From Nitrospirae bacterium CG2_30_53_67 (GTDB lineage Bacteria > CG2-30-53-67): DNA of 20,428 nt. The first letter of the stretch is position 1. Every line of letters begins with the position of its first letter. The stretch covers positions 1-20,428 of the forward strand of contig MNYV01000166.1 of NCBI GenBank assembly GCA_001873285.1. The letters are read 5' to 3'. The notes beneath the pieces were generated by a model. It did not search any database, had not been told where the DNA came from, and was given only the letters and a program-made list of their open reading frames with translations. This document shows positions 5,208-19,665 of the stretch, in pieces. Made by a program: the position numbers and the translations under genes.

Positions 5208-5449
5208 GGTTCTTCTCCCATATAGCGGGTAAAAAGGGTTCGAGGATTCCAGGGTTCAAGGGGTCAAGTGAAATACTGAAACGCAAGCAAAATCCCCAGA
5301 GAAAAACACTGGAACCCTTGAACCCTAGGACCCTCGGCCCCTTATGTCTTTTGCACTTCACTTGACCCCTTGACCCCTTGAGCCCTTGAGCCCTTGACCC
5401 CTTGACCCCTTGACCCCTTAACCCCTTAACTCCTTGGACTCTTGTATCC
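5208..5449. repeat. Octamer-array inverted-repeat element 1
   Basis: The left arm has four in-phase octamers of the GGGGTCAA type (5236-5267). An inner right arm has four reverse-type octamers (5310-5341), and an outer right arm has eleven tandem TTGACCCC-type octamers (5362-5449). TCAAGGGGTCAAGTGAA (5256-5272) is the exact reverse complement of 5357-5373, a 17-bp inverted repeat. The left flank 5208-5235 plus the left arm recurs in inverted orientation at 17951-18013. No gene is seen in the 42 bases between the left and inner right arms. Confidence 0.85.
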
Positions 5450-16433: not shown

Positions 16434-17720
16434 ATGCTGATGAGTGTATGGCTGATCATAGGGGTTTTTGCAGGCGTCCTGGGCGAAGCCTTCTTTGCCG
16501 TTTCCGAGATCTCTCTCATGGTCTCCGACAAACTGACGCTTCTCGATCTCAAGGATAAGCAGAAACCCGGGGCCATGCCCCTGTTGCGCATTCTCTCCGA
16601 TCCCCGGAAGATCTCTTATGCCCTGATGATCGGTACGGTCTTTTCAGCGGGGATCAGTACCCTCTTTCTGTCGGTTTTCGTTTTTCGGATGTTCCCCGGC
16701 ATCTCGCTCGCGGCATCCATCATCATGATCTTTTGTGTTCAGCTCCCCCTGCTGATCATCTTTGGGGAGATCATCCCCAGAGTGTTTTTTTATCACCGGG
16801 CGGAGGATGCCGCCCTCCTGATCGCCAGGCCCCTTTCGTACAGCATGGACCTCTTCAAGCCGCTTATTGAACTTTCAGTCCGCTTTCATAGTCTAGTCCG
16901 GAAATTTACAGGCGTGAAAGAACCGTCGGAGAATCCCTTTGTTGAAGACGAGGATCTGGAGTGGATCAGGCGGTTCGCCCAAGGGAGCGAGAAGCTCAAG
17001 CTGGAGGATGTCCGGATCATCAGGAAGATCTTTGACTTCAGTGACATCCGTGTCCGTCACATCCTTGTCCCCATGGATCAGGTGATCTCGGTGAGCGAGA
17101 AAGCATCCGTAACACAGGCCATGGATGAGGTCGTCAGAAACGGGTACACGAGGCTCCCGGTATACCGGGGAGACAGAACACGGATCGTCGGCCTGCTGCA
17201 TGCCCTGGACCTTTTGCGCATCCAGCCGCTTGACCGGGAGATTGCGGACTACTGCGCGAAACCCTTTTTCGTAAAACCGGACACTCTGATCCGGGACCTT
17301 TTCAAATCCATGCAGAAACGGGGAATCATGATGTCGGTGGTCCTGGGAGACGATGGGACTGCACAGGGGATCATCACCATGGAAGACATCCTTGAAGAGA
17401 TCTTCGGGGAGATTGAGGATGAGTATGATCTGAAGGACCAGCTCTGCCGGGAGGTCAGCGAAAATGAATATCTGGCTGACGCCCGGATCGGCATTCAGGA
17501 ACTGAATGAACAGCTCCACCTTGATATTCCGGGCAACGGTTACAGGACACTGAACGGCTACATCCTCCACTATCTGCGCCGGGTCCCGCAGGAGGGGGAA
17601 CGGTTCACCATCGTGAACCTGATGTTCAAGATCGAACTGGCGGATGAACGGCAGATCTATAAACTCTTCTTAAGGAAGCTGCAGCCGGTTAAAAAGGAAA
17701 ACGGGCCTTTTCCCACTTGA
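16434..17720 (+). CDS. CNNM/CBS-domain (CorC/HlyC-type) membrane protein, second of a tandem pair
   Basis: The 428 residues follow the same plan as the preceding gene: a CNNM domain of about four helices (residues 5-150; GEAFFAVSEISLMVSDKLTLLDLK, PLLIIFGEIIPRVFFYHRAED), paired CBS domains (about 200-325; RHILVPMDQVISVSEKASVTQAMDEV, YTRLPVYRGDRTRIVGLLHALDLL, MMSVVLGDDGTAQGIITMEDILEEIFGEIEDEYD) and a CorC/HlyC domain (about 335-420; YRTLNGYILHYLRRVPQEGERF). The signature region here (AVSEISL) is closer to the family norm than in the first copy. The seven-base gap implies one transcript, and the pair may form a heteromer. ATG 16434 or the ATG at 16440 could start it; no strong ribosome site is seen, which fits translational coupling. 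Confidence 0.87.
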   Translation: MLMSVWLIIGVFAGVLGEAFFAVSEISLMVSDKLTLLDLKDKQKPGAMPLLRILSDPRKISYALMIGTVFSAGISTLFLSVFVFRMFPGISLAASIIMIFCVQLPLLIIFGEIIPRVFFYHRAEDAALLIARPLSYSMDLFKPLIELSVRFHSLVRKFTGVKEPSENPFVEDEDLEWIRRFAQGSEKLKLEDVRIIRKIFDFSDIRVRHILVPMDQVISVSEKASVTQAMDEVVRNGYTRLPVYRGDRTRIVGLLHALDLLRIQPLDREIADYCAKPFFVKPDTLIRDLFKSMQKRGIMMSVVLGDDGTAQGIITMEDILEEIFGEIEDEYDLKDQLCREVSENEYLADARIGIQELNEQLHLDIPGNGYRTLNGYILHYLRRVPQEGERFTIVNLMFKIELADERQIYKLFLRKLQPVKKENGPFPT

Positions 17721-17775
17721 GGAAGGACAGATAATAACTTACGGTTCATCTCCAAAAGAGTGAGTGAAGACATCA

Positions 17776-18013
17776 GGGGTCAAGGGGTCAAGGATTCCAG
17801 GGGTCAAGTGAAGTTCTCAAACACTACAAGGAGTTAAAGGAAGGGCCCCAGTCTTATCAATTATGCTTGGAGATTTATAAAATAACAAAAAGATTTCCTG
17901 AGGAGGTTGAGCGGATGCTCAAGGCACTGATCAAATCACTGGAAAACAAACACTTGACCCCTTGACCCCTTGAATCCTCGAACCCTTTTTACCCAATAGA
18001 TGGGAGAAGAACC
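17776..18013. repeat. Octamer-array inverted-repeat element 2
   Basis: The left arm has four in-phase octamers (GGGGTCAA, GGGGTCAA, GGATTCCA, GGGGTCAA; 17776-17807) and the right arm has four of the opposite sense (TTGACCCC, TTGACCCC, TTGAATCC, TCGAACCC; 17954-17985). CAAGTG/CACTTG closes the arms. The right arm plus the flank to 18013 (TTTTTACCCAAT, TGGGAGAAGAACC) is the inverted counterpart of 5208-5270. Between the arms is a remnant of a four-helix-bundle gene. Outside the element, 17721-17775 and 18014-18106 hold no gene that I can see. Confidence 0.85.
17813..17965 (+). pseudogene. Four-helix-bundle (23S rRNA intervening-sequence type) protein gene, internally deleted
   Basis: The frame reads LKHYKELKEGPQSYQLCLEI, then YKITKRFPEEV, then ERMLKALIKSLENKHLTP and a stop inside the right octamer arm. 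The first part is the N-terminal helix of the four-helix-bundle/S23 family (usually K.L.VWQ.SYQLCLEIYKITK.FP.EE) and the last part is its C-terminal helix (ML.ALIKSLE). About 70-80 central residues, including the RRAA.SIP.NIAEG region, are missing with the frame kept, the VWQ motif is replaced by EGP, and no ATG starts it. It is therefore a relic, not a working gene. Intact relatives are encoded within intervening sequences of 23S rRNA genes and elsewhere in genomes; function unknown. Confidence 0.75.
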
Positions 18014-18106
18014 TAACTTACAAATAAGGTTCTTGCCAAATTGAAGAAAAAATTTGTGTCGAATGGATTCTGGCCGGTCCGGGCGACCCCCGGATCACGC
18101 CGGTAT

Positions 18107-18487
18107 TCAGGTAATTCCAGCCAAGATCTTTTTTGCCCTTTCCAGGACAACTGACGGGTCAAAGGGCTTGGTCATATACTCATCCGCGCCCAGTTCAATC
18201 CCTTTGCTGATTTCATTGATCTGACCTCTGGCAGACAGGATGATCACATGGATGTCCGACAGCCCGGGATCGGTCTTGATCTGCCGGCAGATCTCGTATC
18301 CGTTCTTGCTGGGGAGCATGATGTCCAGAAAGATAAGGCAGGGCCGTTCTTTTTCGATCAATTTCATGGCCTCTTCCCCGTCTTCGGCGGTGATCACGTC
18401 GAGTTTTCCCACCCGTTCCAGTTGAAACTGAAGGGAGCGGAGGATGCAGGGCTCGTCGTCCACCACCAGAATCTTGTTGCTCAGCAT
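18107..18487 (-). CDS. Receiver-only response regulator
   Basis: The 126 residues form one receiver domain: acidic pair Asp10/Asp11, phospho-accepting Asp55 (LIFLDIMLPSKNGYEIC), Ser85 in ILSAR and Lys107 in MTKPFD. There is no output domain, so it should act by protein contact or phosphotransfer, as CheY- or Spo0F-like proteins do. GGAGG lies four bases before the ATG. It follows the histidine kinase gene after 35 bp in the same direction and is its likely partner. Downstream, TCCGGG and CCCGGA pair around GGTCG, but there is no U-run, so I do not call a terminator. Confidence 0.93.
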   Translation of the reverse strand: MLSNKILVVDDEPCILRSLQFQLERVGKLDVITAEDGEEAMKLIEKERPCLIFLDIMLPSKNGYEICRQIKTDPGLSDIHVIILSARGQINEISKGIELGADEYMTKPFDPSVVLERAKKILAGIT

Positions 18488-18522
18488 ATGACCTCCAAAA
18501 TCGTTTTATGAAAAGGACGGGA

Positions 18523-19665
18523 TTATCCGGCCATTTCTTCCTGAGACGGCATGCTTTCCTGCAACAGGACTTTCCTGGCAAGCGGGACCGTGAAGACGAA
18601 CCGGCTTCCCTGTCCGGCGGCCCTGCCTTCCGCCCAGATCATTCCCCCATGGGCGTGGATGATCACCTTGCAGATCGGAAGCCCCAGGCCCGTTCCCTTG
18701 GGCTTGCCGGTCAGGACATTTCCCCCCTGTTTGAACTTGCTGAAGATCTCCTGCCTCTGATCTTCAGGGATCCCGATGCCGTTGTCTTCTACAGAAACCT
18801 GGATCTCATTTCCGGCGGACCTGGCGGCAATCCGGATATTTCCTTTTTGTCCGGTGAATTTGACGGCATTGCTCAGGAGATTTGTGATGACCTGCATGAG
18901 CCTGTCCGCATCTCCCATGACCATGGGGAGATCCTTCTCCACCTCGGTATCCATCCAGATCTCCTTTGCATTGCTCAATGGGGCAATGGACCCGGTTGCT
19001 TTTGTGATGATATCCGGGAGGGAGACGTCCTGCATGTTCCATTCCATCTTACCTGCCTCGAGTTTGCTGAGGTCCAGGATATCATTGACCATGCGTGTGA
19101 GCCGGTCGCTTTCCTGGTCTATAATCTTGAGAAAGTCGTTTCTCTCTTCCGGCCGGACAAGTTCATTGTTATAGAGGAGGATGTTGGAGAAGGCCTTGAT
19201 GGATGTGAGAGGGCTCCTGAACTCGTGTGAGACCATGGAGATGAAATCGGATTTCATCTGGTCCAGCTTTCTCAGTTCCTTATTGGCCCGGGTCAGTTCC
19301 TCGGTCCGGGCATGCATGGATTCGTTGAGGCTTCTGAGTTCACGATTCAGTTTTTCCATCTCCATGGATTTCTTTTTCAAATCGAATGCATTGAGATAGA
19401 GTTCGTCTGTTTTGGTATTGACCAGGAATCCCAGGATGACGAGTATGGCCACAATCAGAAGTATCCCCAGATTGTAGAGTATCGGGTAACCGGACAGATA
19501 ATTGAGGATGAGAAGAAGGGTGAACGTCATCATGATCGCGGTATTATACTGTGTGCCGAGGCATTCAAAAAATCGGCTTTCACAATAGTCGCACCGTTTA
19601 TAGAGCTTGACGTTCAGGCCCTTATAAAGAAGGCAGTTTTCGTTCTTCTTGACCTTCAATTCCAT
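18523..19665 (-). CDS. Membrane sensor histidine kinase with N-terminal Cys cluster
   Basis: In this 380-residue kinase a cytosolic N-terminus with four cysteines (11, 25, 28, 35: NENCLLY, YKRCDYCESRFFECLG) is followed by two membrane helices (about 43-58 and 62-83) with almost no periplasmic loop, a coiled coil (about 95-138), HisKA with His147 (MVSHEFRSPLTSIKAFSNILL) and the ATPase domain (DADRLMQVITNLLSNAVKFT, VEDNGIGIP, GTGLGLPICK). It lacks a periplasmic sensor, so the signal is probably sensed in the membrane or by the Cys cluster, which could hold zinc or an Fe-S centre. The start rests on frame and a weak GCGGA site. It lies between a DUF4395-like gene (30-bp gap) and a receiver gene (35-bp gap), apparently one operon. 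Confidence 0.92.
   Translation of the reverse strand: MELKVKKNENCLLYKGLNVKLYKRCDYCESRFFECLGTQYNTAIMMTFTLLLILNYLSGYPILYNLGILLIVAILVILGFLVNTKTDELYLNAFDLKKKSMEMEKLNRELRSLNESMHARTEELTRANKELRKLDQMKSDFISMVSHEFRSPLTSIKAFSNILLYNNELVRPEERNDFLKIIDQESDRLTRMVNDILDLSKLEAGKMEWNMQDVSLPDIITKATGSIAPLSNAKEIWMDTEVEKDLPMVMGDADRLMQVITNLLSNAVKFTGQKGNIRIAARSAGNEIQVSVEDNGIGIPEDQRQEIFSKFKQGGNVLTGKPKGTGLGLPICKVIIHAHGGMIWAEGRAAGQGSRFVFTVPLARKVLLQESMPSQEEMAG

Follow-up and report, generated by a model that had tools for sequence, protein, structure and literature searches.

A probable ISL3-type MITE enclosing the relic of an octamer-armed four-helix-bundle gene in a Nitrospirae genome

In the window analysed here (a stretch of 20,428 nucleotides of contig MNYV01000166.1 of Nitrospirae bacterium CG2_30_53_67), arrays of an eight-base word face each other across the remains of a four-helix-bundle gene. 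This raises the question of what kind of element the locus represents, where its ends lie, and whether the octamers, the gene or some other component accounts for its mobility. A sequence-only reading of this DNA had proposed a small transposon-like element, or one derived from a 23S rRNA intervening sequence (IVS), with octamers as its ends. That main idea was partly right, in that a small mobile unit does exist and has an intact counterpart elsewhere, but the octamers are not its ends. We conclude that the element is probably a MITE-like, non-autonomous transposon bounded by ISL3-type ends, within which an armed four-helix-bundle (IVP) unit is nested. Direct support comes from its terminal repeats, a target duplication fixed at 8 bp, tens of dispersed copies, the intact form elsewhere, the in-frame deletion within the gene, the spread of a defective form and an empty syntenic site.

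Boundaries and organization of the element

Comparison of the copies within the genome places the element at 17743–18013, with its left edge at 17743 (GGTTCATCTCC) and its right edge at 18013 (GGGAGAAGAACC), and it is larger than the unit bounded by octamers. Two exact 8 bp copies of TAACTTAC, at 17735–17742 and 18014–18021, constitute a target-site duplication on either side. Reading rightwards on the plus strand, the left terminal inverted repeat (L-end, 17743–17774; GGTTCATCTCCAAAAGAGTGAGTGAAGACATC), which is shared with about 48 elements of the same genome and with loci L317, L324 and others in different genomes, is followed by the left octamer arm (17775–17810; AGGGGTCA, AGGGGTCA, AGGATTCC, AGGGGTCA, AGTG), the gene relic (17813–17965), a right octamer arm inverted with respect to the left one (17951–17986; CTTGACCC, CTTGACCC, CTTGAATC, CTCGAACC), and the right terminal inverted repeat (R-end, 17987–18013), which ends in ACCCAATAGATGGGAGAAGAACC and was placed from genome-wide right-end matches and alignment to L317. 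The facing arrays around a relic, with its stop codon in the right one, are thus present as first described. The termini conserved among the genome's copies are GGATCATCTCCAAAAGAGTGGGTGAAAACATC on the left and GGTTCTTCTCCCATTTAGTGGGTAAAAAGG on the right, read inward on the other strand; these terminal inverted repeats are ISL3-like and lie outside the arrays. The octamers are therefore ruled out as the true ends, since conserved non-octamer termini and the 8-bp duplication lie further out, and the structural role assigned to them passes to the separate ISL3-like repeat and its target duplication.

The left and right arms are complementary at 81% over 36 nt, with a perfect core of 18 nt, and the element has complementary ends that close a stem, as do 23S rRNA IVSs. 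Its RNA folds better than shuffled sequences (z = −4.4 for the window copy and −4.7 for L317).

The relic reads EVLKHYKELKEGPQSYQLCLEIYKITKRFP joined to EEVERMLKALIKSLENKHLTP in a single frame, with a TGA stop codon at 17963–17965. Alone it gives a weak match to PF05635 (E = 0.24), and its two ends match an intact homologue at 56% over 41 aa and 95% over 20 aa, with an in-frame loss of about 73 codons. On these alignments, we take it to be an in-frame deletion derivative of a four-helix-bundle gene of the PF05635 (23S rRNA IVP) family. The start codon GTG is now GTT and the residues VWQKS are replaced by EGPQS, so the gene in the window is dead.

A truncated second member of the family lies on the minus strand of the window from 5208 to about 5450. 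Its R-end, at 5208, matches a 63-bp right-end query at 97%, and its octamer arrays, which include 9.5 unit copies at 5361–5436, run to about 5445; the L-end has been lost, and there is no gene relic.

Copies in the genome

The same 63-bp query gives about 40 strong matches across the genome, and at least 48 complete copies, 125–411 bp in length and with no transposase inside, can be recognized. An exact 8-bp duplication flanks 12 of the 48, where 0.13 would be expected from flanks re-paired at random, and a further eight match at seven of the eight duplicated bases; exact duplications of 7 or 9 bp were found in none. Two loci, L036 and L117, were omitted from this count, as their element flanks are perfectly palindromic and lie at contig ends, and they are probably assembly artefacts. 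In the sister species G001 the syntenic place has no element; the upstream and downstream genes are 80.7% and 92.5% identical to those in the window, and the intergenic region has diverged so far that one copy of TAACTTAC can no longer be recognized.

With no more than two mismatches allowed, the 2.36-Mb genome contains 210 + 230 occurrences of the doubled octamer and 0 + 0 of its reversed control, an abundance far beyond chance. Most of these arrays are paired inside bounded elements, which rules out for this genome the notion that they are free filler. Octamers also flank other four-helix-bundle relics here, and neither of the outcomes that the sequence-only reading had named as refuting it was therefore observed.

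Only seven of the 48 complete copies retain gene sequence and the interiors of the others are mosaic, in agreement with the earlier suggestion that the gene can decay while the arms persist. A mutated and deleted form of the gene, recognizable by the signature GGAAGGGCCCCAGTC, is present at 12 sites, which indicates that defective copies were themselves spread. The elements look as if they were built from exchangeable modules joined at octamers. One recurring interior module of other origin, TTACGCTTCGCGTGTCCCGC...CGTCTGCGACGGCTACTACACTAAGGCATCTTGGG, occurs in L024, L063, L100 and L102, and a second, the hairpin CCCCGTTAGAGGTTGTCCTCTAACGGGGT, in L052, L074, L081, L100 and L102.

The intact form that had been anticipated elsewhere in this genome exists in other genomes (L317, L324), but no intact octamer-flanked gene was seen in this one, where contig ends truncate several copies. 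Many contigs terminate within element copies (L003, L004, L007, L008, L009, L012, L015, L016 and L018); the draft assembly is thus broken by the element, and intact gene-bearing copies may hide at these breaks.

Intact relatives in other genomes

A homologue search with a 67-aa fragment of the gene from the same lineage identified 78 loci in named genomes, MAGs of Desulfobacterales, Syntrophales, Nitrospirae, Acetothermia, Aminicenantes, Actinomycetota, WOR-3 and Bacteroidetes. Terminal repeats are present in 31 of the 78, and an exact 8-bp duplication in 13 of the 30 that were scored, against an expectation of 0.1. L317 (1764–2252), in a Desulfobacterales MAG, is an intact element of 489 bp with the same ends, the same octamers, an open gene and an 8-bp duplication, AAATTAAT; the window copy aligns with it end to end except for the internal deletion. 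The L317 protein is a strong match to PF05635 (E = 3.7e-40) and has a homologue of solved structure in XCC0516 (2gsc; E = 3e-23), and it is this intact homologue of which the window copy is the relic. L324 likewise has the same terminal end, and the same octamer arms on either side of an open four-helix-bundle gene. These duplications and same-arm copies around open genes bear out the proposal of a small mobile unit.

The intact genes diverge mostly at third codon positions (for example, 0.51 at third against 0.08 at second positions between L323 and L332), and a difference of this size indicates that the intact gene is under selection. At seven loci (L322, L323, L326, L332, L336, L339 and L345) octamer arms and a full gene are present, but no terminal repeats could be seen by eye.

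PF05635 genes and their inverted arms

The association of a PF05635 gene with facing arrays extends well beyond this family of elements. Arms were measured by matching the 160 bp before each gene, in inverted orientation, with the 160 bp after it, and 1355 shifted pairs taken from these loci served as controls, in a sample that favours strong PF05635 matches and consists mostly of MAGs. Among 94 PF05635 loci from many lineages, 71 lie between inverted arrays of 7–9-nt units, compared with 1% of control windows. The median inverted-match score is 18.5 against 8.0 in controls, and 75.5% of the loci score above the 99th percentile of the controls (p = 6e-45), whereas direct matches exceed theirs in 7.4%. 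The unit is seven nucleotides long in most loci, followed in frequency by eight and nine; it differs from locus to locus, yet is the same in both arms of any one locus. Arms of different loci match one another no better than controls do (1.1%), and the repeat unit is thus private to its locus.

It is conceivable that such arms are ordinary tandem repeats grown by replication slippage, that template switching within a hairpin produced their inverted match, and that they have no role and surround PF05635 genes by chance. Unit copy number does vary widely, as the 9.5-copy array in the window illustrates, unit sequence varies between loci as expected of slippage products, and the seven-nucleotide unit that is commonest here is also, according to earlier work cited in PMC4679880, the commonest long repeat in most bacterial genomes. 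However, the link is specific to PF05635 (no inverted arms were found in 28 loci of a control family, the ParE toxin genes), the inverted arrangement outweighs the direct one by 75% to 7%, and the arms are kept around intact genes in many lineages. We therefore consider this explanation unlikely. Slippage together with template switching in a hairpin is the simplest idea for how both arms might retain one private word.

With neighbouring genes defined as open frames 90 codons or more in length and not by annotation, both neighbours of a PF05635 gene are co-directional with it in 68 of 85 loci and both opposed in two. Because ordinary ParE genes are also mostly in the sense orientation (both neighbours sense in 11, antisense in two), the orientation of gene-bearing copies is weak evidence. 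In the genome of the window, gene-less copies situated between co-directional neighbours are sense in 18 cases and antisense in none, an imbalance that ordinary operon structure accounts for less readily and that fits an effect at the level of RNA.

Elements without terminal repeats show a marginal excess of flanking duplication (longest shared word 4.89 against 4.62), which we do not claim as a duplication. The lack of a clear duplication fits a two-layered construction, in which a transposon end was added to an armed gene unit in the lineage of the window. Nitrospirae, Syntrophaceae and other groups contain octamer-armed PF05635 genes that lack these terminal repeats, and in many lineages PF05635 genes have inverted 7–9-nt arrays of their own without clear duplication; both observations suggest that the armed unit existed before the MITE and would later have been trapped in it.

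A candidate source of mobility

Duplications of eight bases and ends that begin with GG suggest the ISL3 family. A search of the genome of the window for an ISL3 transposase (PF01610) found none, and among 12 genomes with an intact or related element PF01610 is present in five and absent from seven. In an Acetothermia host genome there is an ISL3-family IS at L397 597–2274 (Zn_ribbon_ISL3 and DDE_Tnp_ISL3 domains). Across about 30 nt its R-end matches those of the elements in that genome (z = 9.6; p = 0.0015 for the inner 19 nt alone), and its L-end matches their L-ends (z = 6.6). Its first 11 nt (GGTTCTTCTCC) are common to the window copy, and the comparison involves this one IS, which has no duplication of its own and an interrupted transposase. 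These matching ends in one host genome make mobilization in trans by an ISL3 transposase likely, and an enzyme of this family would then have made the copies described here, as with other MITEs.

We note that the IS at L397 is itself interrupted by a PF05635 gene with heptamer arms (1020–1475), which splits its transposase; just outside the arms, GTAACTACTC and GAGTGGTTAC are mutually inverted, as if the target had been a hairpin.

Alternatively, the four-helix-bundle protein could drive movement itself, the 489-bp single-gene element being autonomous and the terminal repeats and octamers serving as its binding sites. PF05635 is the sole gene of the intact element and is under purifying selection, several hosts have no ISL3 transposase, and armed PF05635 genes are widespread with no transposase within the armed unit. 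Against this, most copies are gene-less and the defective GGAAGGGCCCCAGTC form has reached its 12 sites, the 8-bp duplication and the ends match those of an ISL3 IS, and a clear duplication is absent from elements that lack terminal repeats. To our knowledge, PF05635 proteins have no nuclease or recombinase activity and neither a DDE nor a tyrosine active site. We regard movement by this protein as quite improbable. Least credible, and very unlikely, is a domesticated regulatory or terminator-like repeat, selected at gene ends and not mobile, for although the elements nearly always lie in one orientation between co-directional genes, often with the right end near the downstream gene (median 23 bp for the named elements), and have a strong RNA fold with a T run after the right arm, their 8-bp duplications lie at many unrelated AT-rich sites, their interiors are mosaic and decaying, the syntenic site is empty, unrelated phyla carry the element, and a search within it for an intrinsic terminator of the standard kind gave none.

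Relationship to known elements

The non-autonomous ISL3-type transposon that we favour resembles MITEs of the ISL3 family (the ISL3 / IS204 / IS1001 / IS1096 / IS1165 group), which are short, without a transposase, multicopy, and have terminal inverted repeats starting with GG and a fixed, AT-rich 8-bp duplication; in one host genome, an ISL3-family IS has ends that match those of the window type. It departs from them in its facing octamer arrays and four-helix-bundle gene, and in that no transposase was found in its own genome. The nested unit resembles the 23S rRNA IVSs with an S23p/IVP reading frame, such as those of Coxiella and Leptospira (PMC4990558), in which a sense PF05635 gene is also flanked by complementary, stem-closing arms, the stem outlasts the decaying gene, and distribution is sporadic with horizontal spread. 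Unlike these, the window element is intergenic, each of its arms repeats a short word in tandem where Coxiella has one 28-bp stem (PMC4990558), and it has in addition an outer transposon end and duplication. Derivation from an IVS in 23S rRNA, as had been proposed, finds no backing: there is no Rfam match in 17000–18600, protein genes flank the element on both sides, and none of 40 PF05635 loci scanned is in rRNA.

Excision by RNase III is established for 23S rRNA IVSs (PMC4990558). By analogy, the arms would give the transcript a long closing stem that is likely to be cleaved by RNase III, and the unit might then be tolerable inside operons.

Other resemblances are more distant. The bAvd proteins (PF22296), accessory to diversity-generating retroelements, are of the same fold class, and the L317 protein matches their profile with E = 3.6e-8, below its cut-off, but no reverse transcriptase or variable repeat was noticed beside the element among the open reading frames of the window. 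Intergenic heptamer repeats are also known in cyanobacteria as STRR heptamers. The TAACTGA repeats of Beggiatoaceae (PMC4679880) are likewise tandem seven-nucleotide words between genes, oriented towards the downstream gene, but they are direct repeats without a four-helix-bundle gene, and that report does not mention S23, four-helix proteins or intervening sequences. Foldback transposons such as Tetris of Drosophila virilis (PMC4079207) have inverted ends made of tandem short repeats, but are eukaryotic and longer, whereas the arrays in the window lie inside a separate terminal repeat.

The function of PF05635, the gene family behind the 23S rRNA IVSs, is not known. In the open-access literature we found no paper linking these genes to flanking repeat arrays, and PF05635 genes between facing arrays do not seem to have been described there. 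If members of this family normally live between locus-specific arms outside rRNA, then the rRNA IVSs would be a special case of a broad class, and the long-noted excess of seven-nucleotide repeats in bacterial genomes would gain a possible source. The evidence leaves us evenly divided on the larger proposal that PF05635 genes in general are the core of a widespread and undescribed class of selfish elements, with private facing arms of 7–9-nt units, located in the sense orientation between operon genes and moved or tolerated at the RNA level, of which the 23S rRNA IVSs are only the best-known members and the window element is one captured by an ISL3-type MITE. The window type also illustrates how a transposon end can amplify an armed unit, which then loses its gene.

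Some further arrangements were seen in other genomes. Solo octamer-like arrays (L127, L129, L138 and L143) occur in G072 and G114, where no PF05635 match reaches E ≤ 0.001. At three of the 40 loci scanned, CRISPR direct repeats (L177 2423–3309, L192 2–38 and L212 2927–2963) are situated no more than about 1.5 kb from the PF05635 gene. In genome G267, degenerate tandem repeats of about 70 bp follow two near-identical 500-bp PF05635 copies (L186 and L260).
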